IMG/VR virus record: IMGVR_UViG_3300037488_003126
Location: 1 to 24,004 of that record
Source of the DNA: a virus
Strand: one strand, 5' to 3'
Length of the DNA: 24,004 nucleotides
In this document: positions 5,609 to 23,604 of the stretch, piece after piece
Position numbering within the stretch: the stretch's first letter is position 1
Layout: every line of letters starts with the position of its first letter
Notes under the pieces: model-generated
The model's input: only the letters and a program-made list of their open reading frames with translations
What the model was told of the DNA's origin: nothing
Databases searched by the model: none
Made by a program: the position numbers and the translations under genes

Positions 5609-6150
5609 GTGATTTGAATTTATTGGAGAGCAACAGCGGAGGTGATGTACTTCTGAAAGGACGCGACCTGCAGTTTATTTACGGCTGGCAAAACATGCCT
5701 TACCTGGCTTTGTTTGGTGGTAATATTGCGCAGGATACGCCATCATTGGTATTACCAGAAGAGCAGCGGTTTGATTACTGGGGAAATAGTTTGTTTCATG
5801 CAGCCGAACCTGAGTTGCAATTCAATTCATTGACGGAACGAATGCTGATGAATGTGGAGTTGAGTTCCGCAGGTCGTTTGCAAATTGAGCAGGCTGTAAA
5901 AAAAGATTTGCAGTTTATGCAAGCCTTCGCGATTATTGAAGTGGAGGTTAGTATTACAGGTGTGGACCGTGTGGAAATTCTTATCCGCTTTACCAAGCCT
6001 GACAAATTGCAGCAGCGAGAATTTATATTCATCTGGGATAACACAAACAGTTCACTAACTTATGTAACACCTTCTGAAAATCAATATTTAGGAACGGAGA
6101 GTGGCGGATTTATTACAACGGAAAGCGGAGAATTAATTTCATTATGGTAA
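5596..6150 (+). CDS. Baseplate wedge protein, Mu gp46-like
   Basis: Probable gp46/gp25-like baseplate component that starts sheath and tube assembly. Family features: an N-terminal region with GGDVLLKGRDLQF, a RFDYWGNSLF stretch at about residues 55-65 in the place of the WWG motif of GP46 proteins, and a helix-strand core with EVEVSITGVDRVEILIRF. At 184 aa it is a little longer than Mu gp46 because of a C-terminal tail carrying an imperfect duplication (GTESGGFITTESGEL). The start ATG 5596 lies within the end of the tape measure gene, suggesting translational coupling. The following gene is baseplate J, as in Mu. Confidence 0.75.
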   Translation: MVAVGDLNLLESNSGGDVLLKGRDLQFIYGWQNMPYLALFGGNIAQDTPSLVLPEEQRFDYWGNSLFHAAEPELQFNSLTERMLMNVELSSAGRLQIEQAVKKDLQFMQAFAIIEVEVSITGVDRVEILIRFTKPDKLQQREFIFIWDNTNSSLTYVTPSENQYLGTESGGFITTESGELISLW

Positions 6151-6168
6151 CTAACAAAATAAACTAAG

Positions 6169-6197
6169 ATGCTTCGACTACGCTCAGCATGACAGCC
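6169..6197 (+). repeat. Hairpin repeat copy 2
   Basis: ATGCTTCGACTACGCTCAGC followed by ATGACAGCC. The outer stem is ATGCT with AGCAT, whereas other copies have GCCCT with AGGGT, so paired positions change together. It ends eight bases before the ATG of the baseplate J gene. Confidence 0.88.
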
Positions 6198-6205
6198 AAT
6201 AAAAA

Positions 6206-7366
6206 ATGATAACGATACCAACACTTAACGCACTTTACACACAAATTCTTGCCGACCTGGAAGCGGAATTTAATATTACTATTCCGCTGTTTGGTAAGAA
6301 TTTTTTACGTGCCTTGGCTGCTGTGCAGGCTGCCAAGTTGAAACTGTTTTATCTGGCGGTTGGCAACATTCAGAAAAACATTTTTTGCGATACAGCAGAT
6401 CCGGAGGCAAGTGGCGGAACGCTGGAACGTTTCGGAAGAGTGAAGCTAAACCGTAATCCTTTTCCTGCTGTGGCCGGTCAATACACGGTTGCGGTTACAG
6501 GAACAATCAGTTCTGTAATTCCTGCGCAAACAACTTTTAAAAGCGATGATACCAGCACTTCGCCAGGCTACCTTTTTATTTTAGATAGCGCCTACACGCT
6601 TACAGCAACAACGGATTATATTACCCTTCGCGCCTTAACAGCCGGTGAAGATGCCGTATTGGTTGCTACCGATACGCTGACGGCCACTGCACCTATTGCA
6701 GGCGTGAACAGTGCGGCTGCAATAAGTGCTATTGTAGTGGCTGCTGAAGATGCTGAAACAATTGAAGAGTACCGCGCTGAGGTATTGGCAGCTTACAGAT
6801 TGGAGCCGCAAGGCGGAGCCGCAACGGATTACCGCCTGTGGGCAAGTGATGCAGTTGGTGTGCGCCAAACGTATCCGTATGCAAAAACAGGCGAAAGCAA
6901 TGTAATTGATTTGTATGTGGAAGGTAACACTGCCAACGGTGTGCCCAGTGCCGGAGTATTAGCGCAGGTGGAAGCGGTGGTAGAATTAGATCCTGATACT
7001 TCCAAACCATTGAATGAACGGGGGCGCAGGCCGTTGGGTGTGTTGCAGGTAAATTACCTGGATGTGGTACCGCTGAGTGTAAATATTACGGTGAATGATT
7101 TTGTAGGTACTGAAGAGCAAAAAGAAAATATTGATAATGCCATTGCCGATGCGCTGGATGCCATCCGTCCGTTTGTTAGCGGTGCTGATATTGTTGCGGA
7201 CAGGAACGACACGCTGAGCGAAACACGCATGTCTTTTTATATTCAGGATGCCGAACCAACGGTTTCTTTTTCATCAGTGGATATTACAGTGAATGGTGTG
7301 GCGCAAACAAGCTATCAATTTACGATGGGTGATATACCGTATTATAATTCATTAACCTGGAACTAA
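6206..7366 (+). CDS. Baseplate J-like protein (Mu gp47-like)
   Basis: Baseplate wedge protein that links the hub to the fibres. The 386 aa match the family length. Recognisable parts: an N-terminal helical region with PLFGKNFLRALAAVQAAKLK, a central beta domain with AGQYTVAVTGTISSVIPAQT and ITLRALTAGEDAVL, then the family-typical segment EDAETIEEYRAEVLAAYRLE with PQGGAATDYRLWA shortly after it (about residues 185-210), and a C-terminal beta part. The start follows a hairpin repeat by eight bases in an A-run with no Shine-Dalgarno sequence. Its place between gp46- and gp48-like genes agrees with Mu. Confidence 0.9.
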   Translation: MITIPTLNALYTQILADLEAEFNITIPLFGKNFLRALAAVQAAKLKLFYLAVGNIQKNIFCDTADPEASGGTLERFGRVKLNRNPFPAVAGQYTVAVTGTISSVIPAQTTFKSDDTSTSPGYLFILDSAYTLTATTDYITLRALTAGEDAVLVATDTLTATAPIAGVNSAAAISAIVVAAEDAETIEEYRAEVLAAYRLEPQGGAATDYRLWASDAVGVRQTYPYAKTGESNVIDLYVEGNTANGVPSAGVLAQVEAVVELDPDTSKPLNERGRRPLGVLQVNYLDVVPLSVNITVNDFVGTEEQKENIDNAIADALDAIRPFVSGADIVADRNDTLSETRMSFYIQDAEPTVSFSSVDITVNGVAQTSYQFTMGDIPYYNSLTWN

Positions 7367-7376
7367 TAATTATTAA

Positions 7377-7402
7377 GCCCTTCGACTACGCTCAGGGTGA
7401 CA
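7377..7402 (+). repeat. Hairpin repeat copy 3
   Basis: Standard form GCCCTTCGACTACGCTCAGG plus GTGACA. It ends four bases before the ATG of the gp48-like gene, so it occupies the ribosome-binding region. Confidence 0.9.
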
Positions 7403-7406
7403 AAGA

Positions 7407-8195
7407 ATGACTACTGAAGAAAAAATAGAAAAATTATCATCGCAACTTTACCCATCTGGCCGTGCCATGCGCACCATCGGATGGAAGGAAAAGCTGCACA
7501 CTGCCCTTGCGCTGAGTGAGGCAAGGGCGTGGGATGATAATGCCTCTACCCTACTGAGTATATTGCCGGATAACGACAGCTTTACTGCACAGGATTGCAC
7601 AGACTGGGAACGCAGGTTGGGCATGATTACCAACCTGAGCACCGATATTGAGGACCGAAAAGCAGCGATATTATTAAAGATGAATTACCCGGGCACACTT
7701 CGCGCACGGCAGAATTACCGCTATGTGGAGGCGCAGTTGCAGGCGGCAGGATTTAATGTTTATGTGCATGAGAACCGTTTTAGTATTGGTGGCGGAAATT
7801 ACGAAACCATGTCACCTGTTGAGGTAGTTGGTGATACCTACGGTGATGTAAGCCAGTTTGGTTCCGGCCAGTTTGGTGATTTTCAATTTGGTTCAGGTTA
7901 TGATACTGCCTTTTCATTGCTTATGCAGCGTGTTCAGTTTGGTGATTGGCAGTTTGGCGGAAGTCAGTTTGCATGGCGCTATAAAAAAGAATACTTTGTT
8001 GCAAACCACATCAGCGAAACGCAGGATGAAACATTTCACATCGGTTCAAACCTCCGTTCAACCTTCTTTATCGGTGATGCTTACTTAGGAGAGTTTGCAG
8101 ATGTTCCGGCATCGCGCAAAGATGAATTCCGTCAATTGATTTTAAAACTAAAACCCGCCCAAACAGTGGCATTTCTATTCATTAATTATACATAA
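7407..8195 (+). CDS. Baseplate/tail protein, Mu gp48-like (YmfQ/DUF2313 type)
   Basis: Probable gp48-like baseplate protein that connects the J protein with tail fibres. The N-terminal half has the family pattern: SSQLYPSGRAMR near the start, a helix with DNASTLLSILPDN, then DCTDWERRLGM followed by a region with DIEDRKAAILLKM. The C-terminal half is unusual, with FG-repeat segments at about residues 149-165 and 177-190 (SQFGSGQFGDFQFGSG and VQFGDWQFGGSQF), likely a glycine/aromatic-rich fibre-docking region. At 262 aa it is longer than Mu gp48 because of this part. It is followed by a fibre-type gene, as in Mu. Confidence 0.82.
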   Translation: MTTEEKIEKLSSQLYPSGRAMRTIGWKEKLHTALALSEARAWDDNASTLLSILPDNDSFTAQDCTDWERRLGMITNLSTDIEDRKAAILLKMNYPGTLRARQNYRYVEAQLQAAGFNVYVHENRFSIGGGNYETMSPVEVVGDTYGDVSQFGSGQFGDFQFGSGYDTAFSLLMQRVQFGDWQFGGSQFAWRYKKEYFVANHISETQDETFHIGSNLRSTFFIGDAYLGEFADVPASRKDEFRQLILKLKPAQTVAFLFINYT

Positions 8196-8202
8196 AAAAA
8201 TC

Positions 8203-8778
8203 ATGATTAAATTAATCAACAAAACAGGAACAACAACAACGGATGTAGATTATCCGCTTGGCAAGATTACTAATAACCCAGGTGATAACTCAGGTAATGA
8301 GTTGGATGAAAATTTTTTCAATGACTATGTACAGGCGTTTGAAAAAGCATTTGATGTTTCCGGATTAGTAGATAATGGACTACCGGATAATGATGTAAAT
8401 GAGTACCAAATGTTCAAGGCAATGCAGATAGCTATGCGACCTTATAAAGCATATTCAGCTTTGCTATCACAGGCCGGAACTGCCGCACCAACTGTAGAGA
8501 GTATTGATGCGGATGGAAATGCTAATAGCCCGCTTGAAAACTCGCTGAGCGGTCCTATAGTATGGAGCTATAGTAACGTTGGTGAATACATAGGAACATT
8601 GGCTGCGGCTTTTGTTGACAAAAAAACGTTTCTATTGATCAGGAATGAAAGTAATACCATCATCAGTATTGAGCGTTTTAATGCTAACTCACTTTTGATA
8701 AACACCCGTGATAATGCCGGAACGCTTACTAACGGTTTACTTACACAAACATCTGTTGAAATTCGTGTTTACAGATAA
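8203..8778 (+). CDS. Putative tail fibre / structural protein
   Basis: 191 aa with no close named family that I can assign with certainty. The position directly after the gp48-like gene is that of the tail fibre in Mu. The N-terminus has asparagine/aspartate-rich sequence (KITNNPGDNSGNELDENFF). The middle carries AYSALLSQAGTAAPTVES, and the C-terminal half is a beta-rich domain with GPIVWSYSNVGEYIGTLAAA. This combination is, from memory, found at the ends of tail proteins in Bacteroidota phages. The stop codon overlaps the ATG of the next gene (TAATG at 8776-8780), pointing to coupled translation. Base composition resembles its neighbours. Confidence 0.6.
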   Translation: MIKLINKTGTTTTDVDYPLGKITNNPGDNSGNELDENFFNDYVQAFEKAFDVSGLVDNGLPDNDVNEYQMFKAMQIAMRPYKAYSALLSQAGTAAPTVESIDADGNANSPLENSLSGPIVWSYSNVGEYIGTLAAAFVDKKTFLLIRNESNTIISIERFNANSLLINTRDNAGTLTNGLLTQTSVEIRVYR

Positions 8779-9515
8779 TGCTTCAGCTTAATATCAATAC
8801 CGATGCAGTAGTTGTTTTTACCAACACGCTGGAAAAGATGCACAAAAGCGCATTGCCGGTGGCTATACGCACGGCATTGAATTCTGCTGCGTTTGATATG
8901 AAGAAGAAAACGTTGTTAAAAAGTGCGGGTGATGCGTTTGAAAACCGTCAGAAAAATTTCTTTAAAGCATTTAGTAAGGTTGATATGGCTAAAGGTTTTG
9001 ATGTAAATGGTATGGCGGCAACGGTTGGCTTTGTTGAACAGGGATTGAAAGGTGATAAGAATTTTGCGGTAAAAGATTTACAGCAACAGGAAGAAGGCGG
9101 ACGGATTGGCGGCAGAACATTTGTTGCGCTGAACCAGGCACGAAGAGGTAACTCATGGTCTGGATTAGTAGCTGCAAGAAATCGTATCAGTAAAATTCAG
9201 AACATTATCAATTCGCGAAATGCGAAAGGAGTAAATGAAAAGCAAAAATTTGTAAAGTCTGTGTTTTTTGCAGGAAGAGGTGGTTATGTAATGGCTGACT
9301 TTAAAGGCAACAGGATTTTATTTCGTGTAAACTCTGTGCGCAGAATGGCTGAAGGTGGCTTTAAACTGACTGCTTTGTATTCAATGGAAAAAAGCCGCAG
9401 CGTAAAAGTGAATCGTACCAACTTTGCAAAAACAGCAGCATTGACCAGCGCACAGCAGATTGAGCGGTTTTATATTGATGAGGCGAAGAAACAAATTGAA
9501 CGGCTGAAAAACTAA
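8778..9515 (+). CDS. Minor tail protein, gpZ/HK97 gp10-like
   Basis: Probable tail completion or connector protein of the gpZ type. Features: an N-terminal helix with VFTNTLEKMHKSALPVAIRT and ALNSAAFDMKKKTLLKSA, which matches the start of prophage minor tail protein Z, then a basic region rich in lysine and arginine and a beta-rich C-terminal half ending in a helix (AQQIERFYIDEAKKQIERLK). The 245-aa length fits. In most phages such proteins are encoded between head and tail genes; here the gene lies inside the baseplate block, between fibre-type and gp43-like genes. That position lowers confidence in the exact role. Confidence 0.6.
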   Translation: MLQLNINTDAVVVFTNTLEKMHKSALPVAIRTALNSAAFDMKKKTLLKSAGDAFENRQKNFFKAFSKVDMAKGFDVNGMAATVGFVEQGLKGDKNFAVKDLQQQEEGGRIGGRTFVALNQARRGNSWSGLVAARNRISKIQNIINSRNAKGVNEKQKFVKSVFFAGRGGYVMADFKGNRILFRVNSVRRMAEGGFKLTALYSMEKSRSVKVNRTNFAKTAALTSAQQIERFYIDEAKKQIERLKN

Positions 9516-9516
9516 G

Positions 9517-9542
9517 ATGCTGAAACAAGTTCAGCATGACGG
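9517..9542 (+). repeat. Hairpin repeat copy 4
   Basis: ATGCTGAA-ACAAG-TTCAGCAT, an 8-bp perfect stem with a five-base loop, followed by GACGG. It ends six bases before the ATG at 9549. An identical core recurs as copy 6. Confidence 0.88.
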
Positions 9543-9548
9543 AAGAAA

Positions 9549-10775
9549 ATGAGTTGGATTGAAAAAATAAAAACAGACTTAATCATTACCACCGGTGATG
9601 CTAAGGAATACCGTCCGCAATGGCTGAACGCCACTAAATCGGTTGACTTTAATATTACCGAGTTTGATTTTGTAAACGTGCAGGGTTCGTTAGTTGACAG
9701 GCGCGAACCAAAGGCACGTAAATTTAATCTGGAACTTTATTTTCAGGGTGAGGATTGTTTAGATACTTCTGCTGCTTTTGAATTATCGGCCAATGATAAA
9801 CGTGCATGGCGGGTATCGCATCCTTTTTACGGAAGCATTATTTGTCACCCGGCAAGCTTGCTTTTTGATAATACCAAACTGAACGTTACCAAGATTACCG
9901 GAACTATTATTGAAACCATTACCAATGATAAACCAAAATCAAACATTTCACCGGTTGATAAGATTACGGAAGATAAACAGGCGCTGGATGAGGTATGCGC
10001 TGAGGTGTTTGCAGCAACTGTAACACCGGAAGCAAGCGATGTAAGCAGCATGATTGACAGCACACAACAAACGTATGATGAAGGTGCGTTGGTGGCCCGT
10101 GGTGATGATGCGCAGAATTACTTTAATCTTTTCAATACGGCTAACGCAGCTATCTTGAATGCAACTGCGCAGCCGTTGGCGGCCATACGTGCGTTACAGG
10201 CCGTGATTAATGCGCCTGCCATTTTTGCTGATAATGTGCAGAACCGTTTTGGATTGTTGCAGGATCAGTTTGATGCGCTGCGCAATCAATTGACAAACAT
10301 TTTTTCTCCTAATGAAAAACGTATTTACCAGGCACAGGGAAGTGCCATGGTTTCGTCTATGGCTTTGGCTGCGGCAACTCCGCAAACGGCAAGCGAATAC
10401 GGTAACATGCAGGCTGCGCTGGATATAGCCGAAACGCTGCTGAATAATTACAATCAGTTTCTGGAAGATCTGGACGGGCTGCAAACCGATAACGGTGGTT
10501 TACCTGAAAGTTATATACCGGACCCTGAACCGCTGATTGGTTTGAATGATTTGATTTCATTTACGGTGAGCAACCTGTTTGATATTGCACTGGAAGCAAA
10601 ACAGGAACGTGCGATTATATTGGAAGAGGACAGCAACGCGATTTTATTAACGCATCGCTTTTACGGATTGGATGCGGCAGATGAGTTGCTGGATTATTTT
10701 ATTGCCACCAACCAATTAGGATTGAATGAACTGTTGCAGATCAGGAAGGGAAGGAAGATTTTTTATTATGTATAA
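9549..10775 (+). CDS. DNA circularisation N-domain tail protein (Mu gp43/gpN-like)
   Basis: Baseplate hub-associated protein of the family named for its DNA circularisation N-terminal domain. The N-terminal 110 residues fit well: a beta-strand start, ARKFNLELYFQGEDCLDTSA at about residues 57-76, then the RVSHPFYGSIICHP motif matching the family's HP-x-x-G pattern. The rest is mostly helical with an alanine-rich middle, common in this family. At 408 aa the length is usual. It is followed by gp44- and gp45-like genes in the Mu order, but these three lie after the fibre gene instead of before gp46. It is preceded by a hairpin repeat. Confidence 0.82.
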   Translation: MSWIEKIKTDLIITTGDAKEYRPQWLNATKSVDFNITEFDFVNVQGSLVDRREPKARKFNLELYFQGEDCLDTSAAFELSANDKRAWRVSHPFYGSIICHPASLLFDNTKLNVTKITGTIIETITNDKPKSNISPVDKITEDKQALDEVCAEVFAATVTPEASDVSSMIDSTQQTYDEGALVARGDDAQNYFNLFNTANAAILNATAQPLAAIRALQAVINAPAIFADNVQNRFGLLQDQFDALRNQLTNIFSPNEKRIYQAQGSAMVSSMALAAATPQTASEYGNMQAALDIAETLLNNYNQFLEDLDGLQTDNGGLPESYIPDPEPLIGLNDLISFTVSNLFDIALEAKQERAIILEEDSNAILLTHRFYGLDAADELLDYFIATNQLGLNELLQIRKGRKIFYYV

Positions 10776-10784
10776 AATATTAAT

Positions 10785-10813
10785 GCCCTTCGACTACGCT
10801 CAGGGTGACAGCC
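10785..10813 (+). repeat. Hairpin repeat copy 5
   Basis: Standard GCCCTTCGACTACGCTCAGG plus GTGACAGCC, five bases before the ATG of the gp44-like gene. Confidence 0.9.
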
Positions 10814-10818
10814 AATAA

Positions 10819-11835
10819 ATGACGCTAAAAATAAATAATTCAAAATTTGATTTCTTTAACAGGTTTTCGGTAACGCTGAGGTATGACAGTGTTGCCTCTG
10901 CGTTTGGTTTTGAGGCGTATTTTAATACTGAAAGCACAGAGCATAAGCAATTACTAAAGCCGTTGAGGTATGCACGCTGTGTGGTAGAGCATGAAGGTGA
11001 AACGCTTATTACCGGAACGTTGTTAAATAATACATTTAAGTCTGCACCGGCAAAACAGGCCGTGCAGTTAAGTGGTTATTCAGTAACGGGTGTGTTGGAA
11101 GATTGCGAAACCTTTGAGCCGCTACAGAGTGATAATCTTACGCTGAAAGAAATTGCTGAAAAGTTATTGAAACCGTTTGGAATTTCTATTGCCATTGCTG
11201 AAGCTGTGAAAAGTAAAATGGATGAAAAGATTACAGTAAGCACATCGGGCGAAAAGCAACGCATTAAAAGTTACCTGACTGAATTGGCTGCACAAAAAAA
11301 TATTATTGTTTCGCACACTGCCGGAGGTGCACTGTTGTTTACAGTTGCCAACGCAAAGCAAAAGCCGGTATTGCATTTTGATAGTGGTATTCCGGGAACT
11401 GAAATGAACCTGACAATTAACGGGCAGGCCATGCATAGCGATATAAAAGTGGTAGCGCAGGCAGATACCGAAAGCACCAACACCGCAGAGAATGTTATTA
11501 AAAATCCGTTTGTTTCGGCATACCGGCCAAAGGTGGTAGTACAAAGCTCCGGTGATGATAACAACACGGAGCAGGCGGCAAAGAATATATTGGCTGATGA
11601 GTTGAAGAATATAAAACTTTCCATCAACACGGACCGCTGGATGATTGACGGGAAAGTGATAAAGCCAAACATGGTGATTTCAGTTACTAACGATGAATTG
11701 TTTTTGTATAAAAAAACCAACTGGTTTGTGGAGAGTGTAAAACTGGATGGTGATAGTAGCAAAACAACGGCAACGTTGGAATGTGTATTGCCGGAGGTTT
11801 ATAATGGAAATGCGCCTGTGAATATTTTTAATTAA
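10819..11835 (+). CDS. Baseplate hub protein, Mu gp44 (gpP)-like / gp27 fold
   Basis: Probable baseplate hub that carries the spike and matches the sixfold tube. The 338-aa length is near Mu gp44. The pattern fits a gp27-like double beta-barrel: an early barrel with NRFSVTLRYDSVASAFGFEA, then CVVEHEGETLITGTLLNN, the family-like SGYSVTGVLEDCE segment, and the helix LTLKEIAEKLLKPFGISI at about residues 108-125. The barrel continues after that and ends with TATLECVLPEVYNG. Its neighbours, a gp43-like gene before and a gp45-like spike gene after, support the call. A hairpin repeat lies in each flanking junction. Confidence 0.85.
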   Translation: MTLKINNSKFDFFNRFSVTLRYDSVASAFGFEAYFNTESTEHKQLLKPLRYARCVVEHEGETLITGTLLNNTFKSAPAKQAVQLSGYSVTGVLEDCETFEPLQSDNLTLKEIAEKLLKPFGISIAIAEAVKSKMDEKITVSTSGEKQRIKSYLTELAAQKNIIVSHTAGGALLFTVANAKQKPVLHFDSGIPGTEMNLTINGQAMHSDIKVVAQADTESTNTAENVIKNPFVSAYRPKVVVQSSGDDNNTEQAAKNILADELKNIKLSINTDRWMIDGKVIKPNMVISVTNDELFLYKKTNWFVESVKLDGDSSKTTATLECVLPEVYNGNAPVNIFN

Positions 11836-11839
11836 TGAG

Positions 11840-11865
11840 ATGCTGAAACAAGTTCAGCATGACGG
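11840..11865 (+). repeat. Hairpin repeat copy 6
   Basis: The same ATGCTGAA-ACAAG-TTCAGCAT hairpin as copy 4, followed by GACGG, four bases before the ATG of the spike gene. Confidence 0.88.
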
Positions 11866-11869
11866 ATAA

Positions 11870-12394
11870 ATGATAAACATAGTAAGAACCATAGACACAA
11901 CGGTTGATAGTATTGGTCGCAGGATTGTGAAGTTTTTCCGTTTGGGTAAAACGGTTGAAACAGCTATGCAGGCAGCCGCTTACGGAACAGATGCGCAACC
12001 TATTGAAGATTGTATTGCGATATATGCTCAAACGGGAGTGAAAGGGAAAACGGTGATCATCGGTTACATTAATAAGAATGCAGTTGCCGGAGTTGGTGAA
12101 CATCGTTTATTTTCAACGGATGCGGATGGTGCCGTGCAATTTTATATTCACTTAAAAAATGACGGCACCTGTGAAATTGGAGGAAGCGCAAACCACATGA
12201 CAAGGTATGAAGAATTAGAAACTGCATTTAATGAATTGAAAAGTGATTTCAACACGCATGTAAATAATTATAACACCCACGTTCATCCGGGTGTGTTGGC
12301 TGGTCCTGCAAGCACCGCTGTAACAGTATCGGTTAGCACACCATCACAGGCGGATATAAGTGGGGCGAAGATTGATGAAATAAAAACGTTGTAA
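11870..12394 (+). CDS. Baseplate spike protein, Mu gp45-like
   Basis: Membrane-piercing spike at the centre of the baseplate. The 174 aa contain an OB-like N-terminal domain (about residues 40-95) followed by a slender tip region. At residues 137-139 an HxH motif (NTHVHPG) matches the iron-binding histidine pair known at the spike tips of P2 gpV-type and Mu gp45-type proteins. A further histidine (H130) lies in FNTHVNNY just before. The helix EELETAFNELKSDFNTH probably sits before the tip. It is the last gene of the tail block and is followed by a hairpin and a new promoter. Its start lies four bases after a hairpin repeat. Confidence 0.85.
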   Translation: MINIVRTIDTTVDSIGRRIVKFFRLGKTVETAMQAAAYGTDAQPIEDCIAIYAQTGVKGKTVIIGYINKNAVAGVGEHRLFSTDADGAVQFYIHLKNDGTCEIGGSANHMTRYEELETAFNELKSDFNTHVNNYNTHVHPGVLAGPASTAVTVSVSTPSQADISGAKIDEIKTL

Positions 12395-12410
12395 AACCAC
12401 CCCTTTAATT

Positions 12411-12433
12411 CCCCTCCTTAAAAAAAGGAGGGG
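12411..12433. terminator. CCCCTCCTT/AAGGAGGGG hairpin after the tail operon
   Basis: A 9-bp perfect stem with a five-A loop, directly after the spike gene and before the next promoter. There is no following T run, so it may be a weak terminator or a dispersed repeat; the same hairpin type recurs at 23536-23562. It overlies the -33 position of the promoter at 12455. Confidence 0.5.
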
Positions 12434-12454
12434 CGAAGATAAAAATAAATAGTT

Positions 12455-12462
12455 TACATTTG
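12455..12462 (+). promoter_or_regulatory. Promoter -7 box (TACATTTG) for the head operon
   Basis: TACATTTG inside AGTTTACATTTGCAAAC, the identical 17-mer found on the minus strand at 996-980 and 14650-14634. The box ends six bases before ATG 12469, so the transcript would have almost no leader. No TTTG is seen 19 nt upstream. Confidence 0.62.
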
Positions 12463-12468
12463 CAAACC

Positions 12469-12771
12469 ATGAATTCAGTATATTACGACAGTGCGGATAT
12501 CTATGTTGAAAGCGGAACTACCCTTCGCGAAAAGATAGCGAAGGTAGATGCCATTATTGAGGCATTGGAAACCAGTGCGCTGAAAGCAGCCGGAAAAAAC
12601 AGCATACAGGAATACACGTTAAATGACGGTCAAACCACTATACGCACAGCTTACAGAAGCGCATCAGAAGTAGAGGCAAGCATTACTGCATTTGAGCGGA
12701 TAAGGCAGCGTTATATCAACAGGCTAAATGGCCGCCACATGCGTTTTGTGGATGGTAAAAACTTCAGTTAA
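12469..12771 (+). CDS. gpW-like head-tail joining protein
   Basis: Small protein in front of the portal gene, the place of lambda gpW. The 100 aa contain a helix (TTLREKIAKVDAIIEAL), a short beta hairpin (IQEYTLNDGQTTIRTAYRS) and a second helix (EVEASITAFERIRQRYINRL), the alpha-beta-beta-alpha order of gpW. It is longer than lambda gpW (68 aa) at its N-terminus. ATG 12469 is preferred over TTG 12460, which lies inside the promoter box. The portal ATG follows two bases after the stop. Assignment rests on fold pattern and position, since sequence similarity to lambda is too low to judge by eye. Confidence 0.68.
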   Translation: MNSVYYDSADIYVESGTTLREKIAKVDAIIEALETSALKAAGKNSIQEYTLNDGQTTIRTAYRSASEVEASITAFERIRQRYINRLNGRHMRFVDGKNFS

Positions 12772-12773
12772 TC

Positions 12774-14390
12774 ATGGGCATACTTCAAAGTTTAGTTAAT
12801 TTATTTTCAGCAAAAAAAAAAGAGGTTGCAGAACGTGGCCCCGAAGCAAGTTACGGGTATGGCCGTACCTTGTATGTAAAAAGTTATGATGGCGAAAAGA
12901 ACCTGGGCGAGATAGGCCCGGTGTATGATTATGTGCTGGATCATGAAGTATTGCGGATGCGCAGCTGGCAGGCATATCTGGAAAGTGAGATAGCGCAAAC
13001 GGTTTTAAAAAAATATTCGCTTTGGCATATTGGTAAAGGTTTACGCCTGCAAGCTGAACCATTGGAAGAGGTATTGAAAAGTGAAGGTATTACGTTTGAT
13101 GCGGAAGATTTTAATGAGATAACGGAAGCCCGTTTTAAAGCCTACAGCGGATCGCGCATTGCGGATTATTCAGACATGCGCAGCTTAGATAAAATTGCGC
13201 GTATTGCTTTTGTTAATGCTATTATTGGCGGTGATGTGTTGGTTGTTTTGCGTTATGAGGAAGGTTCTGTAAAGGTGCAACTGATAGACGGTGCGCATGT
13301 TTGCTCGCCTTACCTTGGTTCTGATTTATTTGGTACTGCAAAAAACAGCGGACATAAAATTATTCACGGTGTAGAGGTAGATGCGAAAGGAAAGCATGTG
13401 CGCTACTATGTAAGAAAGCCGGGTGTTGTTTTTAATTATGATGTGTATCCAGTGGAAGCGCGTAACAGCTTTGGGCAGGTAACTGCGTTTATGGTTTACG
13501 GCATGGATTACCGCATTGATAACACGCGCGGAATTCCTTTAATATCTACTGTGTTGGAAAGTTTGAAAAAGCTGGAACGCTATAAGGAAGCAACAGTAGG
13601 AAGTGCAGAAGAAAGGCAAAAAATAATTTTACAGGTGGTGCATCAGGCTTATTCTGATGGCGAAAACCCGATGGCAAAGCAACTGGCAAAAGCATTTAAT
13701 GCAGAAGCCGGAGCGAATGACCTGCCGGAAGATATCAGAGGTACGCAATTGGCGAATACGGTGGCAGCCACTACCAATAAAAGCGCATTTAATATGCCTG
13801 TTGGCGCTGAGATGAAAACACTGGAGAGTAAAAATGAATTATACTTTAAAGATTTTTACACCGTGAATATTGATATTGTGTGCGCGGTGATTGGCATACC
13901 GCCAAACGTTGCGATGAGTAAGTATGACAGTAATTTTTCTGCTGCACGTGCAGCTATAAAAGACTGGGAGCATACACTGCAGGTGAACCGTAAAGATTTT
14001 TCGGAACAGTTTTACCAGAATATTTATAATTTCTGGCTCGATATTGAAGTATTGAATAACCGCATACAGGCACCTGGTTATTTAATGGCTTTACTTACTA
14101 AAGTGAGAACAGTGTTAGATGCTTACCGAAACGCCCGATTTGCGGGTGCAAATGTGCCTCACATTGATCCTTTGAAAGAGGTAAATGCAGAACGTGCAAA
14201 ACTGGGTAAAGCAGCAGAGAATATACCACTGGCAACGGTTGAGAGTGCTACTGAAGCTTTGAATGAAGGTGACAGCGACAGCAACATGCGCCAATTTGCA
14301 AAAGAATATGAGTATGCAAAAGAATTAAATATACCGGTGATTACACCTGTAGCTGCTCCGCCTGAAAATCCGGCACCGGAAGAAGAGTAA
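12774..14390 (+). CDS. Portal protein, lambda gpB family
   Basis: Dodecameric portal at the capsid vertex through which DNA is packaged and ejected. The 538 aa match the lambda family (lambda gpB is 533). Recognised segments: the N-terminal YDYVLDHEVLRMRSWQAYLE with a following helix, the wing region with FVNAIIGGDVLVVLRYEEG, RGIPLISTVLESLKKLERYK (family helix, about residues 246-265), the YDSNFSAARAAIKDWEHTLQ motif that lambda-family portals share as SN[YF]S.AR, and the C-terminal NVPHIDPLKEVNAERAKL. It ends in a proline/glutamate-rich tail. Twelve bases separate its stop from the convergent minus-strand gene. No terminase is found upstream, which is where lambda has it. Confidence 0.93.
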   Translation: MGILQSLVNLFSAKKKEVAERGPEASYGYGRTLYVKSYDGEKNLGEIGPVYDYVLDHEVLRMRSWQAYLESEIAQTVLKKYSLWHIGKGLRLQAEPLEEVLKSEGITFDAEDFNEITEARFKAYSGSRIADYSDMRSLDKIARIAFVNAIIGGDVLVVLRYEEGSVKVQLIDGAHVCSPYLGSDLFGTAKNSGHKIIHGVEVDAKGKHVRYYVRKPGVVFNYDVYPVEARNSFGQVTAFMVYGMDYRIDNTRGIPLISTVLESLKKLERYKEATVGSAEERQKIILQVVHQAYSDGENPMAKQLAKAFNAEAGANDLPEDIRGTQLANTVAATTNKSAFNMPVGAEMKTLESKNELYFKDFYTVNIDIVCAVIGIPPNVAMSKYDSNFSAARAAIKDWEHTLQVNRKDFSEQFYQNIYNFWLDIEVLNNRIQAPGYLMALLTKVRTVLDAYRNARFAGANVPHIDPLKEVNAERAKLGKAAENIPLATVESATEALNEGDSDSNMRQFAKEYEYAKELNIPVITPVAAPPENPAPEEE

Positions 14391-14402
14391 GATTAAACTT
14401 TG

Positions 14403-14612
14403 TTATATTTTATTATTGCGAACCACTTTAAGATGTGCAGGTTCTTTATCCGCGAGATCGCGGAGGTGTGGCTTTAAGTAGCTGCTGAGGTCAATACCTT
14501 TATTACCTGCAATAACTACCAGCATTTTTTTTAATTCTTCGGGAACACTTTCAATCACGATGCGGTTACTTATTCGCTTTTCATCTGGCTTTGTTTTAGC
14601 TTGTGATTTCAT
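14403..14612 (-). CDS. Small ribbon-helix-helix-like protein
   Basis: 69 aa, probably a DNA-binding protein of the ribbon-helix-helix (CopG/Arc) type. The stretch SNRIVIESVPEELKKMLVVI gives the strand and first helix, and KGIDLSSYLKPHLRDLA the turn and second helix, as in these regulators. The N-terminal 13 residues are basic and flexible. The gene lies on the opposite strand inside the head operon, converging with the portal gene, and has its own TACATTTG box about 26 nt before the ATG inside the duplicated promoter segment. It could be the regulator that binds the dyad at 14662-14680 and 1008-1026; that link is inference. Alternatively it is an accessory antitoxin-like gene without a partner. 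Confidence 0.6.
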   Translation of the reverse strand: MKSQAKTKPDEKRISNRIVIESVPEELKKMLVVIAGNKGIDLSSYLKPHLRDLADKEPAHLKVVRNNKI

Positions 14613-14637
14613 GTGATTTGTAGAGATTGTTAGTTTG

Positions 14638-14645
14638 CAAATGTA
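14638..14645 (-). promoter_or_regulatory. Promoter -7 box (TACATTTG) for the minus-strand gene
   Basis: TACATTTG on the minus strand, about 26 nt before ATG 14612, within the same 17-mer as the boxes at 984 and 12455. The -33 position again falls under the dyad. Confidence 0.6.
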
Positions 14646-14661
14646 AACTGATATAAATTCA

Positions 14662-14680
14662 ACTGTAGCATTGCTACAGT
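14662..14680. promoter_or_regulatory. Operator-like dyad, second copy
   Basis: ACTGTAGCA, T, TGCTACAGT. Identical arms to 1008-1026; only the central base differs (T here, A there), which is the one change that leaves the symmetry intact. This suggests the arms are under selection. Confidence 0.6.
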
Positions 14681-14723
14681 ATTTTTTATTAACAGGTTTT
14701 CAATAGGGATTTTTGGCGGCACA

Positions 14724-15683
14724 ATGAAAAAAGAACTTTATCTGTTCGCCCCCATTTATGATTTTGTAGCGGAAGCTGTGTTATCGCAGATTGAGGATAA
14801 TATGGATAATGATGTTACGCTGCGCACACTTACGCCCGGTGGTAATCTTTTTGCAGCTTACAGTATTTATGCCAAGTTGAAAGAACATGGTAATGTTCAT
14901 CTGAAAGTAGATGGTGCTGCAAATTCTGCCGGTGCCTTTTTACCGCTTTATGCAAAATCATCTGAGTGCCTGGATGTATCGCGTTTTGTTTTTCACCGCG
15001 CTGATATGTTTGTTGAAAACGCAGAGGAACAGAAATTTCTGGATGATGTGAATAAGGACCTGAAGCGCCAGATGAAAATGCGCATTGATGCTGATAAATG
15101 GAAAGAGGCGACCGGCATCACGATTGAACAAATGTTTGATCCTACTACCCGAAAAGATTTTACGCTTACCGGTGTTCAGGCTAAAGCAGTTGGTTTGGTT
15201 ACGAAAGTAGTTAAGCTGACACCCCAAATGCAAAAAGAGCTTGTTGCTTTAAATGATTACTACAAAGTAGCAGCAACAACTGAAGAAGAAGAAAATAAAA
15301 ATCCAAAAATCACAACAATGACAAAAGAAGAATTCAAAGCCAAGCATCCTGAAGTGTATGCTGCAATTGCAACTGAAGCCGTAACTGCCGAGCGCGACCG
15401 TGTTGGTGCGTGGATGGCTTTTTCAAAAGCTGATCCTGAAGCAGTGGCAAAGGGTATTAAAGAAGGTAAAAACCTTTCGCAAACCGAAATGGCTGAGCTG
15501 AGCGTGAAAATGCTGAGCGGAAAAACACTGGATACCATTAAAGATGAAAACGCTGAAGCGGTGAAAACCGATGAGGTGAAGGATCCTAAAAATGCGAAAG
15601 CAAAAACAGATGCTGAAAAAGAAGTGGCAGCATTTGAAGAGCGCATTGACGGGCATCTGGGCTTGAAAAAAGAAGTAAAATAA
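14724..15683 (+). CDS. Head maturation protease (ClpP/S14 fold) with C-terminal scaffold region
   Basis: Serine protease that processes the procapsid, like lambda gpC. The N-terminal 190 residues are ClpP-like: TLTPGGNLFAAYSIYAKL has the TPGG oxyanion segment (residues 37-40), DGAANSAGAF carries the probable nucleophile S68, and FVFHRA the probable catalytic H91. The third catalytic residue is not certain. From about residue 199 the protein becomes helical and charged, resembling a fused scaffold (lambda Nu3 type), and it ends EERIDGHLGLKKEVK. The 319-aa length fits a protease plus short scaffold. Decoration and capsid genes follow. Transcription likely starts in the 88-bp segment just upstream. 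An internal start for the scaffold alone is listed separately. Confidence 0.85.
   Translation: MKKELYLFAPIYDFVAEAVLSQIEDNMDNDVTLRTLTPGGNLFAAYSIYAKLKEHGNVHLKVDGAANSAGAFLPLYAKSSECLDVSRFVFHRADMFVENAEEQKFLDDVNKDLKRQMKMRIDADKWKEATGITIEQMFDPTTRKDFTLTGVQAKAVGLVTKVVKLTPQMQKELVALNDYYKVAATTEEEENKNPKITTMTKEEFKAKHPEVYAAIATEAVTAERDRVGAWMAFSKADPEAVAKGIKEGKNLSQTEMAELSVKMLSGKTLDTIKDENAEAVKTDEVKDPKNAKAKTDAEKEVAAFEERIDGHLGLKKEVK
15318..15683 (+). other. Possible internal start producing a scaffold protein alone
   Basis: An in-frame ATG at 15318 (residue 199 of the protease gene) follows the linker TEEEENKNPKITT and starts MTKEEFKAKHPEVYAAIATE, just where the helical scaffold part begins. A 121-residue product would match the nested Nu3-in-C arrangement of lambda. 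The upstream A-rich stretch is typical of starts in this window. Not proven by sequence. Confidence 0.45.
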
Positions 15684-15694
15684 AAAAAGCTAAA

Positions 15695-15723
15695 GCCCTT
15701 CGACTACGCTCAGGGTGACAGCC
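15695..15723 (+). repeat. Hairpin repeat copy 7
   Basis: Standard GCCCTTCGACTACGCTCAGG plus GTGACAGCC between the protease and decoration genes, 34 bases before the next ATG. Confidence 0.9.
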
Positions 15724-15757
15724 GGTAAAAAAAACAAACATTCTAAAAAAATAAATC

Positions 15758-16198
15758 ATGTCAGCAACAACAGCAGAGAACACCACCAATAAGTTGGTTA
15801 CTAATTATGACAGCAGCAAAATCTTTTTGCGCGATAACCGTTTTCAGGAAGGAACTTATACTGCGGGTATCTATGATATTACGCTGGAAGCGGGTACGGT
15901 GATGGGCCGTATTACTGCCAGCGGAAAAGTTATTCCTTTTGAAAGTGATGCCAGCGATGGCAGCCAGTATCCGTTTGCGGTGTTGGCCGAAACCACGGAA
16001 GTGGCGGAAGGTGATGATGCCATCCTTAGCCTGTGCGTTGCCGGTGATGTGGATGAAGGTATGTTGGTGTTTGTGAAAGATGGCGATGACCTGGAAACGG
16101 TTGTTGACGGAAAGATTGTGCGCGACCGCATTGGCAGCGACAGTGTGGCCATAATGCTGAAAGCGGCAACGGAGAATACTTCTTACGATAATCAATAA
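15758..16198 (+). CDS. Head decoration protein, lambda gpD-like
   Basis: Capsid-stabilising trimeric decoration protein. The 146 aa include NRFQEGTYTAGIYDITLEAG and GTVMGRITASGKVIPFES, the beta-strand pattern of the gpD family, then DGSQYPFAVLAETTEVAEG and ILSLCVAGDVDEGMLVFV. It lies between protease and major capsid genes exactly as in lambda (C, D, E). It is longer than lambda gpD (110 aa) by N-terminal and C-terminal extensions. It is acidic overall, with many aspartates. The ATG at 15758 follows an A-rich leader. Confidence 0.82.
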   Translation: MSATTAENTTNKLVTNYDSSKIFLRDNRFQEGTYTAGIYDITLEAGTVMGRITASGKVIPFESDASDGSQYPFAVLAETTEVAEGDDAILSLCVAGDVDEGMLVFVKDGDDLETVVDGKIVRDRIGSDSVAIMLKAATENTSYDNQ

Positions 16199-16208
16199 AA
16201 AAAACAAG

Positions 16209-16250
16209 GCCCTTTGTCCCGATAGCTATCGGGAACGCTCAGGGTGACAG
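16209..16250 (+). repeat. Hairpin repeat copy 8, with an inserted inner palindrome
   Basis: The ends match the standard repeat (GCCCTTTG and CGCTCAGGGTGACAG), but the interior is a perfect 18-base palindrome TCCCGATAGCTATCGGGA at 16217-16234. It lies between the decoration and capsid genes and shows the family is modular: constant outer arms, exchangeable inner hairpin. Confidence 0.85.
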
Positions 16251-16283
16251 CTAATAAAAATAAAAATCTAAATACACACAAAA

Positions 16284-17318
16284 ATGAACATTCAGGAAGC
16301 AAGAAGTATTTTCACAAAAAAACTTATCGCTGTTTATAAAGAGAAATTGACGGCAACTGCGTTTTTGCGCAGCTTCTTTCCATCAGTGGAAAGTATGACG
16401 AAAGAAATTTCTATTGAGGTGCAGCGTAATGGCGAGCCGGTAGCGGTAGATGTACACCGTTACAGCGATGGTAACCTGAACAAGTTCAGCAAAAGCACAG
16501 AAAAGATTTTTGTGCCACCGTACTTTTATGAATACATTGTTGCAAATGACCACCGTTTGTATGATGTTGCCATCGGTGCGCAAAATGAAGCGGCATTTGT
16601 TCAACTGGCCATGGAAATGGCGGATGAGTTATTTGCTCTTCAGCAAAAAATTGAGCGCAAGTATGAATTGATGTGCGCTCAGGTATTGGAAGATGGTATT
16701 GTGCAATTGCGCACATCCACCAATATTGACTTCAAACGTAAAGCCGGTTCATTGGTGGACCTTGGCGGAGGTAATTACTGGGCATCAGCTGTTGACCCTT
16801 ACGAAGATTTGGAAGCGGGTGCAAACTTTTTGCGCCAAACCGGTAAAGCTGGCGGAGGTGTTTTTAACGGGCTTTTCGGAGCACAGGCATTCAGTGCGTT
16901 GTTAAACAACACTGCGTTCAAAGAACGTAATGATTTGAAAAATATCAGTCTGGATGCGGTTGCGCCTCCACAGCGTAATTCGCTTGGTGCTGCTTTCCAT
17001 GGTGAAATAAGCATTGGCAGCTACAAACTGCGTTTGTGGACTTACCCTGAATTTTATGATTTGAGCGGAACCAGCACACCTTACCTGGATGAGAAAAAGG
17101 TAGTGATGCTTCCTGAAAATCCGAACTTTAAATTAGCTTTTGCAGCAGTGCCGCAGCTGATTGAGAACGGTGGTGAGATACCACAAAAAGGTGCTTACCT
17201 GGTTCAGGAGTTCATTGACAAAAAGAAAACTGCTCACGAGATCAGTATTAAATCTGCAGGTATTCCGGTTCCGGTTGCTGTTGACCAGATTTACACACTG
17301 AAAGTGGTAACAGGATAG
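16284..17318 (+). CDS. Major capsid protein, lambda gpE family
   Basis: Main HK97-fold shell protein. The 344 aa are almost the length of lambda gpE (341). Family-like features: the N-terminal helix with LTATAFLRSFFPSVESMTKE, the strand segment KEISIEVQRNGEPVAVDVHR, then KIFVPPYFYEYIVAND, helices with LAMEMADELFALQQKIERKY, and the C-terminal KKTAHEISIKSAGIPVPVA with a final strand. The order protease, decoration protein, capsid protein is that of lambda. The start at 16284 follows a run of A and a hairpin repeat 33 bases upstream. A strong hairpin follows the gene. Confidence 0.92.
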   Translation: MNIQEARSIFTKKLIAVYKEKLTATAFLRSFFPSVESMTKEISIEVQRNGEPVAVDVHRYSDGNLNKFSKSTEKIFVPPYFYEYIVANDHRLYDVAIGAQNEAAFVQLAMEMADELFALQQKIERKYELMCAQVLEDGIVQLRTSTNIDFKRKAGSLVDLGGGNYWASAVDPYEDLEAGANFLRQTGKAGGGVFNGLFGAQAFSALLNNTAFKERNDLKNISLDAVAPPQRNSLGAAFHGEISIGSYKLRLWTYPEFYDLSGTSTPYLDEKKVVMLPENPNFKLAFAAVPQLIENGGEIPQKGAYLVQEFIDKKKTAHEISIKSAGIPVPVAVDQIYTLKVVTG

Positions 17319-17329
17319 TATTGAAACAA

Positions 17330-17366
17330 GGTTGCAGGATGCATAAACATTATGCATCCTACAACC
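17330..17366 (+). other. Strong RNA hairpin after the capsid gene
   Basis: GGTTG and AGGATGCATAA (17330-17346, with one mismatched C) pair with TTATGCATCCT and CAACC (17350-17366) around the loop ACA: 16 base pairs with one mismatch. It is followed by an A-rich rather than T-rich stretch, so it is not a standard terminator. It may stabilise the abundant capsid message or reduce readthrough into the connector genes. Confidence 0.55.
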
Positions 17367-17382
17367 ATAAAACAAAACACGC

Positions 17383-17715
17383 ATGAAAACAGGAACAGTA
17401 AAAGTTACGGCATTAAGCGGAAAAGGGAATAAAATATTCCGTTCCGGTGATGTAGTTAAAGAAAGCAACTTTCCGGAAGGTAACTGGAAAGGTTTGGTTT
17501 CGGGTGGGTACATCGTTGAAAGCACTTCGCTTTCAGCACAAGCTCGCTCAGATGCCTCCCAGGCATCTGCCGTGCTCAGCATGACAGCCAACGAAAATTC
17601 TATTCCTGCATTTGATGCTATTGACAAAAAAGGCATTAAAGCATTGCTGACTGAAAAGGGAATTGCCTTTGATGATAAAATGAATAAACAAGCTCTTTAC
17701 GATCTTTTAAAATAA
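17383..17715 (+). CDS. Small head protein with C-terminal HeH/SAP-like domain, interrupted by an in-frame repeat
   Basis: 110 aa in the place of lambda FI, directly after the capsid gene. The N-terminal 45 residues form a small beta domain (TVKVTALSGKGNKIFRSGDV and SNFPEGNWKGLVSGGYIV). The last 37 residues (IPAFDAIDKKGIKALLTEKG, FDDKMNKQALYDLLK) look like a helix-extended-helix domain of the HeH/LEM/SAP type found in such phage proteins. Between them, residues about 48-69 are encoded by a hairpin repeat (17523-17589) read in frame, giving AQARSDASQASAVLSMTAN. The repeat has thus become an interdomain linker. The role in head completion is inferred from position. Confidence 0.68.
   Translation: MKTGTVKVTALSGKGNKIFRSGDVVKESNFPEGNWKGLVSGGYIVESTSLSAQARSDASQASAVLSMTANENSIPAFDAIDKKGIKALLTEKGIAFDDKMNKQALYDLLK
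17523..17589 (+). repeat. Hairpin repeat copy 9, long form, inside a coding sequence
   Basis: Long variant with TTCGCT, GCTCGCTCAGATG, a perfect 9-bp inner stem CAGATGCCT-CCC-AGGCATCTG (17549-17569), CCGTGCTCAG and CATGACAGCC. The same long form recurs at 22681-22746 between genes, with the inner stem changed to CAGATGT/ACATCTG. Here it is in frame with no stop codon. Confidence 0.85.
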
Positions 17716-17742
17716 GGTTTTTAGGTTTGGATTAGTGGAGTG

Positions 17743-17775
17743 GAAAAGGGCGTGTGGTTAGCGCCCTTTTCTTTT
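17743..17775 (+). terminator. Intrinsic terminator
   Basis: GAAAAGGGCG (17743-17752) pairs with CGCCCTTTTC (17762-17771) around a nine-base loop, followed by TTTTAAT. It is a standard rho-independent structure between the FI-position gene and the next gene. It would end or attenuate transcription coming from the capsid gene. Confidence 0.75.
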
Positions 17776-17794
17776 AATAAACCTCACCTCTTAT

Positions 17795-17813
17795 CCTCTC
17801 CTTAAAGGAGAGG
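17795..17813. repeat. CCTCTCCTT/AAGGAGAGG hairpin
   Basis: A 19-base near-perfect palindrome (9-bp arms around one A) preceded by ACCTCACCTCTTAT. It resembles the CCCCTCC hairpins at 12411 and 23536 and is probably a dispersed repeat of the same kind. With the terminator just upstream it fills the 142-base gap before the gene at 17858; no clear promoter box is seen there. Confidence 0.55.
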
Positions 17814-17857
17814 AAGCAAAGCACTAACACACGAACCGGTTAAATGAAATAAGGTAA

Positions 17858-18235
17858 ATGGGATTACTGGAAGATATAAAAGAAGATTTGGTTGATATTA
17901 CTTCGGACAGTGATGGGTTTGGTGTGGAACTTGTTTTTACTAATCCTGCAGGTGATGCTACGGCAACTATAAACGGCTTGCACACAAAGCATCACATATC
18001 ACTGGATGAAACGGGCAGGCCGGTAAACAGCAAGAATGCACACATATCATTTGTAGAAAGTTTGCTGATAGCAGAAGATTATACCATACGCAGTGCAAGC
18101 GGTGAGGTAAACCTGAAAGGCCATAAGGTAAGTGTAGTGGATAGTACCGGTGATGTAAAGCATTATATGATACGTGAATGGTTTCCGGATGAAAAGCTGG
18201 GTTTGATCGTTTGCATTTTAGGTGATTTTGAATAA
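17858..18235 (+). CDS. Head-tail connector / stopper-type protein (lambda FII position)
   Basis: 125 aa in the position of the head-tail joining protein. It has an N-terminal helix (GLLEDIKEDLVDITSDSDGF) and then a beta-rich body (VELVFTNPAGDATATINGL, HISFVESLL, GHKVSVVDSTGDVKHYMIRE), compatible with the small beta-barrel of FII-like adaptors and ending in strand-forming LGLIVCILGDFE. No membrane segment or catalytic motif. It is followed by a hairpin repeat and the tail terminator-like gene. The name rests on position, length and predicted strands, not on a motif I can identify with certainty. Confidence 0.6.
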   Translation: MGLLEDIKEDLVDITSDSDGFGVELVFTNPAGDATATINGLHTKHHISLDETGRPVNSKNAHISFVESLLIAEDYTIRSASGEVNLKGHKVSVVDSTGDVKHYMIREWFPDEKLGLIVCILGDFE

Positions 18236-18250
18236 TATAAAAAAGGTGAA

Positions 18251-18279
18251 GCCCTTCGACTACGCTCAGGGTGACAGCC
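18251..18279 (+). repeat. Hairpin repeat copy 10
   Basis: Standard GCCCTTCGACTACGCTCAGG plus GTGACAGCC, ten bases before ATG 18290. Confidence 0.9.
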
Positions 18280-22680: not shown

Positions 22681-22746
22681 GGCCATTCGCTAACGCAAAG
22701 GCTCGCTCAGATGTTCACCGGACATCTGCCGTGCTCAGGGTGACAG
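22681..22746 (+). repeat. Hairpin repeat copy 11, long form
   Basis: Same long form as copy 9: CCATTCGCT, GCTCGCTCAGATG, inner stem CAGATGT/ACATCTG, CCGTGCTCAGGGTGACAG. It follows the endolysin stop by three bases. The inner stem differs from copy 9 but still pairs. Confidence 0.85.
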
Positions 22747-22808: not shown

Positions 22809-23516
22809 ATGAAAACAAAAGAGAGAATTATATGGATGGCCGTGGCTGGTGTGCTGATTGCAGCATTGTTTATAAGAGGTTGTAAAAATGAAATGTTGCC
22901 GATATGGAAGAGGTGCCCGGTGGCGGTTAAATGCCCTACTGTTGATACGGCCACGAGCTATATTGAAGTATTTGATAGTTTGCAAAGGCGAATTGATTTT
23001 TTGGAGCAAAGTGGCAAGCCCTTCGACAAGCTCAGGGTGACAAAACCGAAAGCTCAGGATCCTGCGTTTTGGTTTACAATGGAACAGGGGGCTGATACGG
23101 CTGCGATAATTGAAAGGTATAAGGCTACACTTGCGGATTGCTTTGCTGAAAACAGCTATACCCTACCCTACCATGATGATAGCATTGCTGCGGTGATGAA
23201 TATAACGGTGAGTGAGAATAAGGCGAAGGAAGCGAAATTAAGTTATAAGTTAATTTTTCCAGTGGCGCATACCAGTAACCTGGTAACTGTTACTACTGAT
23301 ACAACGGTGGTGCATGGTTACGGGCCTGCTTTAACGTTTGGCGGAGGTATTGAAGCCGGTGTTAATGGTTTGTACTTTGCCGGTGGTGGATTAGGTATCA
23401 GCACTACTAAAGGCTCACACTTTACAGTGGAGTATAATGCGTATAAGCTGCTGACGGGTGAGGATAAGTATTCGTTCAGGGTTGGGTGGCATCAGGTGAT
23501 AAGGCTGCGTAAATAA
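22809..23516 (+). CDS. Membrane-anchored protein of unknown function, with in-frame hairpin repeat
   Basis: 235 aa. An N-terminal membrane segment (IIWMAVAGVLIAALFIRGC, residues 7-25) is followed by a region with CPTVDTATSYIEVFDSLQRR that may be coiled. The C-terminal half is beta-rich: GPALTFGGGIEAGVNGLYFA and KGSHFTVEYNAYKLL, alternating polar and aromatic residues as in outer-membrane strands or a surface beta domain. Residues 70-78 (KPFDKLRVT) come from a hairpin repeat read in frame. Its position after the endolysin suggests an envelope or spanin-like role, which I cannot show. The short inserted segment falls between the helical and beta parts. Confidence 0.6.
   Translation: MKTKERIIWMAVAGVLIAALFIRGCKNEMLPIWKRCPVAVKCPTVDTATSYIEVFDSLQRRIDFLEQSGKPFDKLRVTKPKAQDPAFWFTMEQGADTAAIIERYKATLADCFAENSYTLPYHDDSIAAVMNITVSENKAKEAKLSYKLIFPVAHTSNLVTVTTDTTVVHGYGPALTFGGGIEAGVNGLYFAGGGLGISTTKGSHFTVEYNAYKLLTGEDKYSFRVGWHQVIRLRK
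23018..23042 (+). repeat. Hairpin repeat copy 12, inside a coding sequence
   Basis: GCCCTTCGACAAGCTCAGGG plus TGACA, the short variant with ACAAG in the loop. It is read in frame as KPFDKLRVT without a stop. Confidence 0.88.
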
Positions 23517-23525
23517 AACCACCCC

Positions 23526-23562: not shown

Positions 23563-23604
23563 CAGGCAATACCTCCACTTTTAAATTTGCGTAGCAACCT
23601 CATC

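Follow-up and report, generated by a model that had tools for sequence, protein, structure and literature searches.

A probable CGTC-type REP-like element in the gene junctions of a contractile-tailed phage

Twelve hairpin copies among structural genes

The stretch of DNA analysed here, hereafter the window, is a virus record of the IMG/VR database (IMGVR_UViG_3300037488_003126; 24,004 bases, GC content 42%), and it carries 12 copies of a short hairpin element. Matches to PHROGs showed the phage to be contractile-tailed and the copies to sit among its structural genes, which include those for the sheath (1091), tape measure (3599), baseplate (6206 and 7407), hub (9549 and 10819), portal (12774), protease (14724), decoration protein (15758), major head protein (16284), and head closure protein (17858). 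Reading of the sequence and a scan of both strands placed 12 of 12 copies on the plus strand (two-sided p = 0.0005 under random orientation), which agrees with the coordinates and strand given in a first-pass annotation of the window, including the plus orientation at 299, where transcription is opposite. A detector of arm complementarity found 11 copies in the window against a mean of 0.05 (maximum 1) in 100 Markov-1 shuffles; the 12th, at 17523, escapes it through its imperfect outer stem. In the window, a search with the covariance models of Rfam 15 gave no match at the gathering score, and a tRNA search gave no match.

The outer stems were said to covary, and in most copies they do, with CCC/GGG in some copies against TGC/GCA in others, and also TGCTGAA/TTCAGCA; the copies at 299 (CCC/GGT), 22681 (GCC/GGG), and 17523 depart from this pattern. 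The interior is exchangeable, as the first-pass annotation had noticed, and falls into 5 types: (i) type A, TCGACTACGCTC, in 6 copies (299, 6169, 7377, 10785, 15695, and 18251); (ii) type B, GAAACAAGTTC, in 2 copies (9517 and 11840); (iii) type C, the palindrome CCCGATAGCTATCGGG, in 1 copy (16209); (iv) type D, a long second hairpin, in 2 copies (17523 and 22681); and (v) type E, TCGACAAGCTC, in 1 copy (23018). The type B stem, ATGCTGAA/TTCAGCAT, is a perfect 8-bp stem closed by a 5-nt loop (RNA folding z = −3.9). In types A and E, a 5-bp outer stem encloses a weak interior, and the copies fold no better than shuffled sequence (z about −0.2); types C and D have larger interiors. On the opposite strand, 10 copies begin with TGTC and the 2 type B copies with CGTC.

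Nine copies lie between co-directional plus-strand genes, 1 (299) lies between 2 minus-strand genes, and 2 lie inside genes. That is to say, 10 of the 12 copies are at gene borders, although non-coding DNA makes up only 6.1% of the window once the copies are set aside (p = 4e-11). Six junction copies were described as ending 4–10 bases before the ATGs of structural genes; the PHROG matches support the baseplate, hub, and tail assignments, but the distance is 4–13 nt, and the sole match of the gene at 18290 is phrog_4671, of unknown function. These 6 copies are (i) a type A copy with an ATGC/GCAT stem (6169..6194), between 5596–6150 and the baseplate gene 6206–7366; (ii) a type A copy with a GCCC/GGG stem (7377..7402), between 6206–7366 and 7407–8195; (iii) a type B copy (9517..9541) preceding the hub gene at 9549; (iv) a type A copy (10785..10810) preceding the hub gene at 10819; (v) a type B copy (11840..11864) preceding the gene at 11870; and (vi) a type A copy (18251..18276), between the head closure gene 17858–18235 and the gene at 18290. 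Another type A copy (15695..15720) separates the protease gene 14724–15683 from the decoration gene, the type C copy with its inner palindrome (16209..16249) separates the decoration gene from the major head protein gene, and a type D copy (22681..22745) lies between an open reading frame (ORF) ending at 22677 and one starting at 22809.

The 2 copies inside genes are both in frame. The type D copy at 17523..17586, within ORF 17383–17715, encodes the linker between 2 parts of a protein whose homologues vary in linker length there, and the type E copy at 23018..23042, within ORF 22809–23516, encodes KPFDKLRVTK. The type A copy at 299..324 is antisense to both of its neighbours and supplies the C-terminal codons of ORF 294–986, which runs opposite to the structural genes and encodes a glycosyltransferase family 2-like protein (PF00535, below the cut-off, E = 0.003). 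The junction copies are 1–18 nt from the upstream stop codon, as near to it as to the downstream start codon. Since insertion is tolerated in the gap from stop to start, the proximity of the copies to start codons would be a consequence of these tiny permissive gaps.

The same junctions in related phages

With the portal and head proteins as queries, scans yielded 36 related loci (402 kb), from which contigs of this same phage were set apart; the head or portal proteins of the relatives are mostly 40–68% identical to those of the window phage. No copy of the element was found in the 36 loci. The first-pass annotation had proposed a comparison of orthologous junctions, and it separates the window from its relatives. 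The 6 junctions of the gp47-, gp48-, hub-, hub-, and gp45-type genes and of head closure/18290 measure 55, 40, 33, 43, 34, and 54 nt in the window, respectively, whereas in the relatives the genes overlap (ATGA, TAATG) or are separated by at most 9 nt (−8 to +1, −8 to +3, −4 to +1, −4 to +3, −14 to +2, and −14 to +9 in the same order). Weaker evidence comes from the protease/decoration junction, mostly −1 to +12 nt but up to 57 nt in the relatives, and from the decoration/head-protein junction, which varies from 3 to 207 nt. The absence of copies in the relatives and their closed junctions therefore point to a recent gain and not to a conserved regulator, and we conclude from these sequence comparisons that the elements appear to be recent insertions into junctions that otherwise overlap or nearly touch. 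Among the isolate phages of INPHARED, no match was found to a 66-nt query (window 6150–6215) spanning one copy. Contig 3300037487_002563 extends this phage 5.8 kb beyond the end of the window; the continuation contains no copy of the element, and the contig encodes a 582-aa C-5 cytosine methylase.

Occurrence in bacteria and class of the element

At least 119 stretches of species genomes contain an exact 25-mer of the element, versus 6 stretches in IMG/VR, 2 of which are this phage. Among the matches listed, its bearers are mostly Bacteroidota, with Clostridia, Chloroflexi, SAR324, Cloacimonadota, and Peribacteria also present. A 16-mer core is present at 1–95 copies per genome in 14 hosts bearing the 25-mer, on both strands wherever there are several copies, and a 23-base form was found in 11 of 296 genomes drawn from one phylum; the distribution is therefore patchy. 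Host loci were taken from the matches listed, several per genome, and a simple longest-frame rule served to call their genes. Past TGACA, the host copies are not conserved. Types A, B, and D are all found in the small order of genome G003 (7 genomes, including a metagenome-assembled genome (MAG) labelled Chitinophaga pinensis), type D in 5 of the 7, and type E occurs in other Bacteroidota loci, one of them in a MAG also labelled Chitinophaga pinensis, so that 4 of the 5 subtypes have been found in Bacteroidota genomes. The GC content of the MAG loci (37–44%) brackets that of the window. This order is our best guess, by inference only, for the host group of the phage; a search without a positive control found no relative of the phage head protein in 7 genomes of the host family.

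Many host copies form inverted dimers (37 of 61 close pairs share one inverted arrangement). In the single-contig 3.9-Mb genome G027, nearly all pairs are inverted; its 250 arms form mostly inverted dimers with a nearly constant spacing of 60–61 bp, which makes it a good model for dimer spread. In MAGs of the likely host order single units prevail (20, versus 4 pairs), and the window has no inverted dimer. Two other phage lineages are also rich in copies. One (G016, L320–L322; G015 is L318–L319) is a phage with portal and terminase genes; it carries a related element in 16 copies, which all lie on the coding strand and end in AGTGACC or AGTAACC and several of which are in frame inside a 12.8-kb gene. 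The other (G018, L324–L325), a third phage with portal and head protein genes, carries ~17 element arms over 38 kb, their orientation mixed.

The first-pass annotation likened the copies to repetitive extragenic palindromes (REPs) frequent in Bacteroidota, and the same element families are indeed dispersed in Bacteroidota chromosomes. By its sequence features, we file the set as CGTC-type REP-like. CGTC-type REPs, which include neisserial dRS3 and rickettsial RPE-4 and RPE-6, are dispersed bacterial repeats with no dedicated transposase known, with intragenic units and a predominance of inverted (HH) dimers, and with an uninterrupted 8–9-bp stem that has A-T in its first positions and a 4–5-nt loop (Di Nocera, De Gregorio and Rocco 2013, PMC3733652). 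Type B fits this stem and loop, and the other types fit them in part, with the interiors of types A, C, D, and E departing from the published stem. What the copies share with the class, on the complementary strand, is an unpaired end tag (CGTC, TGTC, or CCTC in the class; TGTC or CGTC in the window), a short stem whose outer pairs covary, frequently with AT at its start, and a small loop. As with CGTC REPs, the element is spread across many phyla, is dispersed in the chromosomes of the sampled genomes with a bias to intergenic positions, has in-frame intragenic units, and is not associated with a transposase in 9 host genomes. Unlike CGTC REPs, the present copies are in a phage, as single units on one strand, at 6–10 times the host density and inside former gene overlaps.

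The comparison with GTAG REPs and REPINs, which are mobilised by RAYT (TnpA-REP) proteins, is less close. These are likewise short palindromic dispersed repeats inserted between genes, with inverted dimers as in our hosts (PMC3733652, PMC6006769, PMC8266576), but the present element has no GTAG or GTGG foot beside its stem, GTAG occurring solely in the type A loop on the minus strand. An origin through RAYT, which the first-pass annotation had led us to expect, was rejected: Y1 transposases are present in most hosts, yet none of 29 Y1_Tnp matches in the 9 host genomes is flanked by the element, and one weak match has a pair more than 1 kb away. This agrees with what is published for CGTC REPs. 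The PeSLs of T4-like phages (Arbiol et al. 2010, as cited in PMC4503421), early promoter plus stem-loop cassettes that mediate gene shuffling, are also small mobile hairpin cassettes in intergenic phage DNA; they differ in carrying early promoters, whereas the copies studied here are repeats of host type and lie among structural genes. A literature search, with most subscription journals outside its coverage, found neither this sequence described nor such REPs reported from phages.

Orientation, origin, and implications

The copies are probably host-derived, non-autonomous CGTC-type REP-like elements that entered a contractile-tailed Bacteroidota phage recently and repeatedly. Five interiors are present, with types A, B, and D in one host order and type E elsewhere in Bacteroidota, which calls for several independent insertions. 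Host-type elements would have inserted at many places in the phage genome, and selection on a compact genome would have retained those between stop and start, or in frame in a tolerant stretch; retention between stop and start would leave copies a few bases ahead of start codons. Active spread into permissive junctions, one of 2 possibilities raised in the first-pass annotation, is thus upheld by relatives that lack the element, by their compact junctions, and by Bacteroidota chromosomes with the same families. Several observations weigh against this origin: (i) an exact empty site was not found, the closest relatives being too distant; (ii) no target-site duplication was found, an apparent excess of a 5-mer being traced to one larger Bacteroides repeat that had entered the sample several times; (iii) no enzyme for the insertion was found; (iv) type C in the element context was not found among the host loci examined; and (v) copy density in the phage is 6–10-fold above that of the densest hosts sampled, and therefore something favours the phage.

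The orientation is the part that simple spread leaves unexplained, since host copies in like positions point the other way. In hosts, single units located no more than 25 nt past a stop codon are antisense rather than sense by 14:5 where genes are co-directional and by 9:1 where they converge, and all 5 units that also have a start codon within 25 nt are antisense, whereas the phage copies compared are 8 of 8 sense (host sense:antisense 5:14; Fisher p = 6e-4). The copy at 299, which keeps the plus strand although its operon runs the opposite way, favours strand-specific insertion over selection at the RNA level, but it is a single copy. The single strand of all 12 copies may reflect, as our preferred though tentative reading, strand-specific insertion, most simply into single-stranded DNA during phage replication. 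Somewhat less likely is a broader proposal, namely that CGTC-type REPs in general move strand-specifically via single-stranded DNA, with replicating phages as their targets and as vehicles between bacteria, and that the uniform polarity here, opposite to that of host chromosomes, displays this. Other viral contigs differ among themselves (16:0 in G016, 0:5 in G020, where copies are antisense to the genes, and 5:7 in G018). Strand coherence as a general rule of viral copies, at first p = 5e-5, was given up when, with dimers collapsed, the neighbour statistic did not differ from that of hosts (39:13 versus 19:8, p = 0.79) and G362 turned out to have copies in common with G016; the pooled test does not separate viruses from hosts, which also counts against the proposed origin. 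So does the lack of replication-strand polarity in hosts, where orientation has no relation to local GC skew (94/203). An apparent one-strand arrangement in G027 was discarded when a search of the reverse strand showed both strands interleaved, mostly as dimers.

The first-pass annotation also considered that the element had been recruited to act in translation initiation, RNA processing, or stoichiometry control. Sense hairpins would have replaced translational coupling through ATGA and TAATG overlaps and would set initiation or mRNA processing, with orientation and spacing under selection. The 6 formerly coupled or near-touching junctions each have a copy in the same sense, the phage orientation is opposite to that of hosts, and the sense 3′ arm has ATGACA or GTGACA, with a short frame that ends at the ATGA of the next gene at 6169, 10785, and 11840. 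Reinitiation from these motifs was nevertheless rejected, as 3 of 5 ATGA-start genes against 1 in 3 expected by frame is not significant. The element is conserved in none of the relatives, 2 copies are intragenic and the one at 299 opposes the transcription of its operon, the hairpins of types A and E fold like shuffles, and other non-coupled junctions of the window have no copies. A regulatory role, for which we found no positive support, is therefore unlikely.

Duplication of one or a few founder copies within the phage genome would give uniform orientation without strand-specific insertion. The sequence TGACAGCC is common to 5 copies in the phage (types A and D), against 5% of those in hosts (7/135, 8-mer count), the copies at 6169 and 10785 have TGACAGCCAATAAA in common despite different stems, and the 2 type B copies are identical over 29 nt. 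The shared bases beyond the element boundary (TGACAGCC) suggest some copying inside the phage, but the shared flank may be a common A-rich start context, duplication within a genome can also yield inverted copies, and 5 different interiors, 4 of them seen in Bacteroidota genomes, require several independent arrivals; as the source of the whole set, local amplification is improbable. That the record is a defective resident prophage gathering host repeats like any stretch of chromosome is very improbable, given full-length open structural genes, the excess density, the uniform orientation, and the absence of host-type inverted dimers, although the elements are chromosomal repeats of Bacteroidota and other host-type hairpins are also in the window.

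The window contains further repeats. An 88-nt direct repeat (977–1064 and 14631–14718, 94% identical) lies upstream of the sheath gene and the protease gene; its features are AGTTTGCAAATGTAAACT and a hairpin, GTAGCAATGCTAC. Similar sites, AGTTTACATTTGCAAAC-like, are present at 402, 12451, and 23660, and together they are a candidate phage promoter or operator. Wide junctions hold a second hairpin type, CCCCTCCTTAAAAAAAGGAGGGG-like (12397–12435, 17781–17815, and 23517–23565), and a third, GGATGCATAAACATTATGCATCC and GGGCGTAAAATTTTACGCCC (17330–17357 and 23605–23632), which look like additional dispersed repeats. A PAS-domain protein (21607–22056; PF00989, E = 1e-7) in the late region is unusual phage cargo.

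CGTC REPs occur in many phyla, yet neither an enzyme that moves them nor a vehicle is known to us. The presence of several subtypes in one phage would indicate that these repeats enter phage DNA recently and repeatedly, opening overlapping junctions, and makes phages plausible carriers of repeats that have no transposase of their own. Recent insertions set against closed junctions in relatives, together with a strand polarity unlike that of hosts, make the insertion mechanism testable. The finding is also a caution that hairpins ahead of phage start codons need not be regulators.

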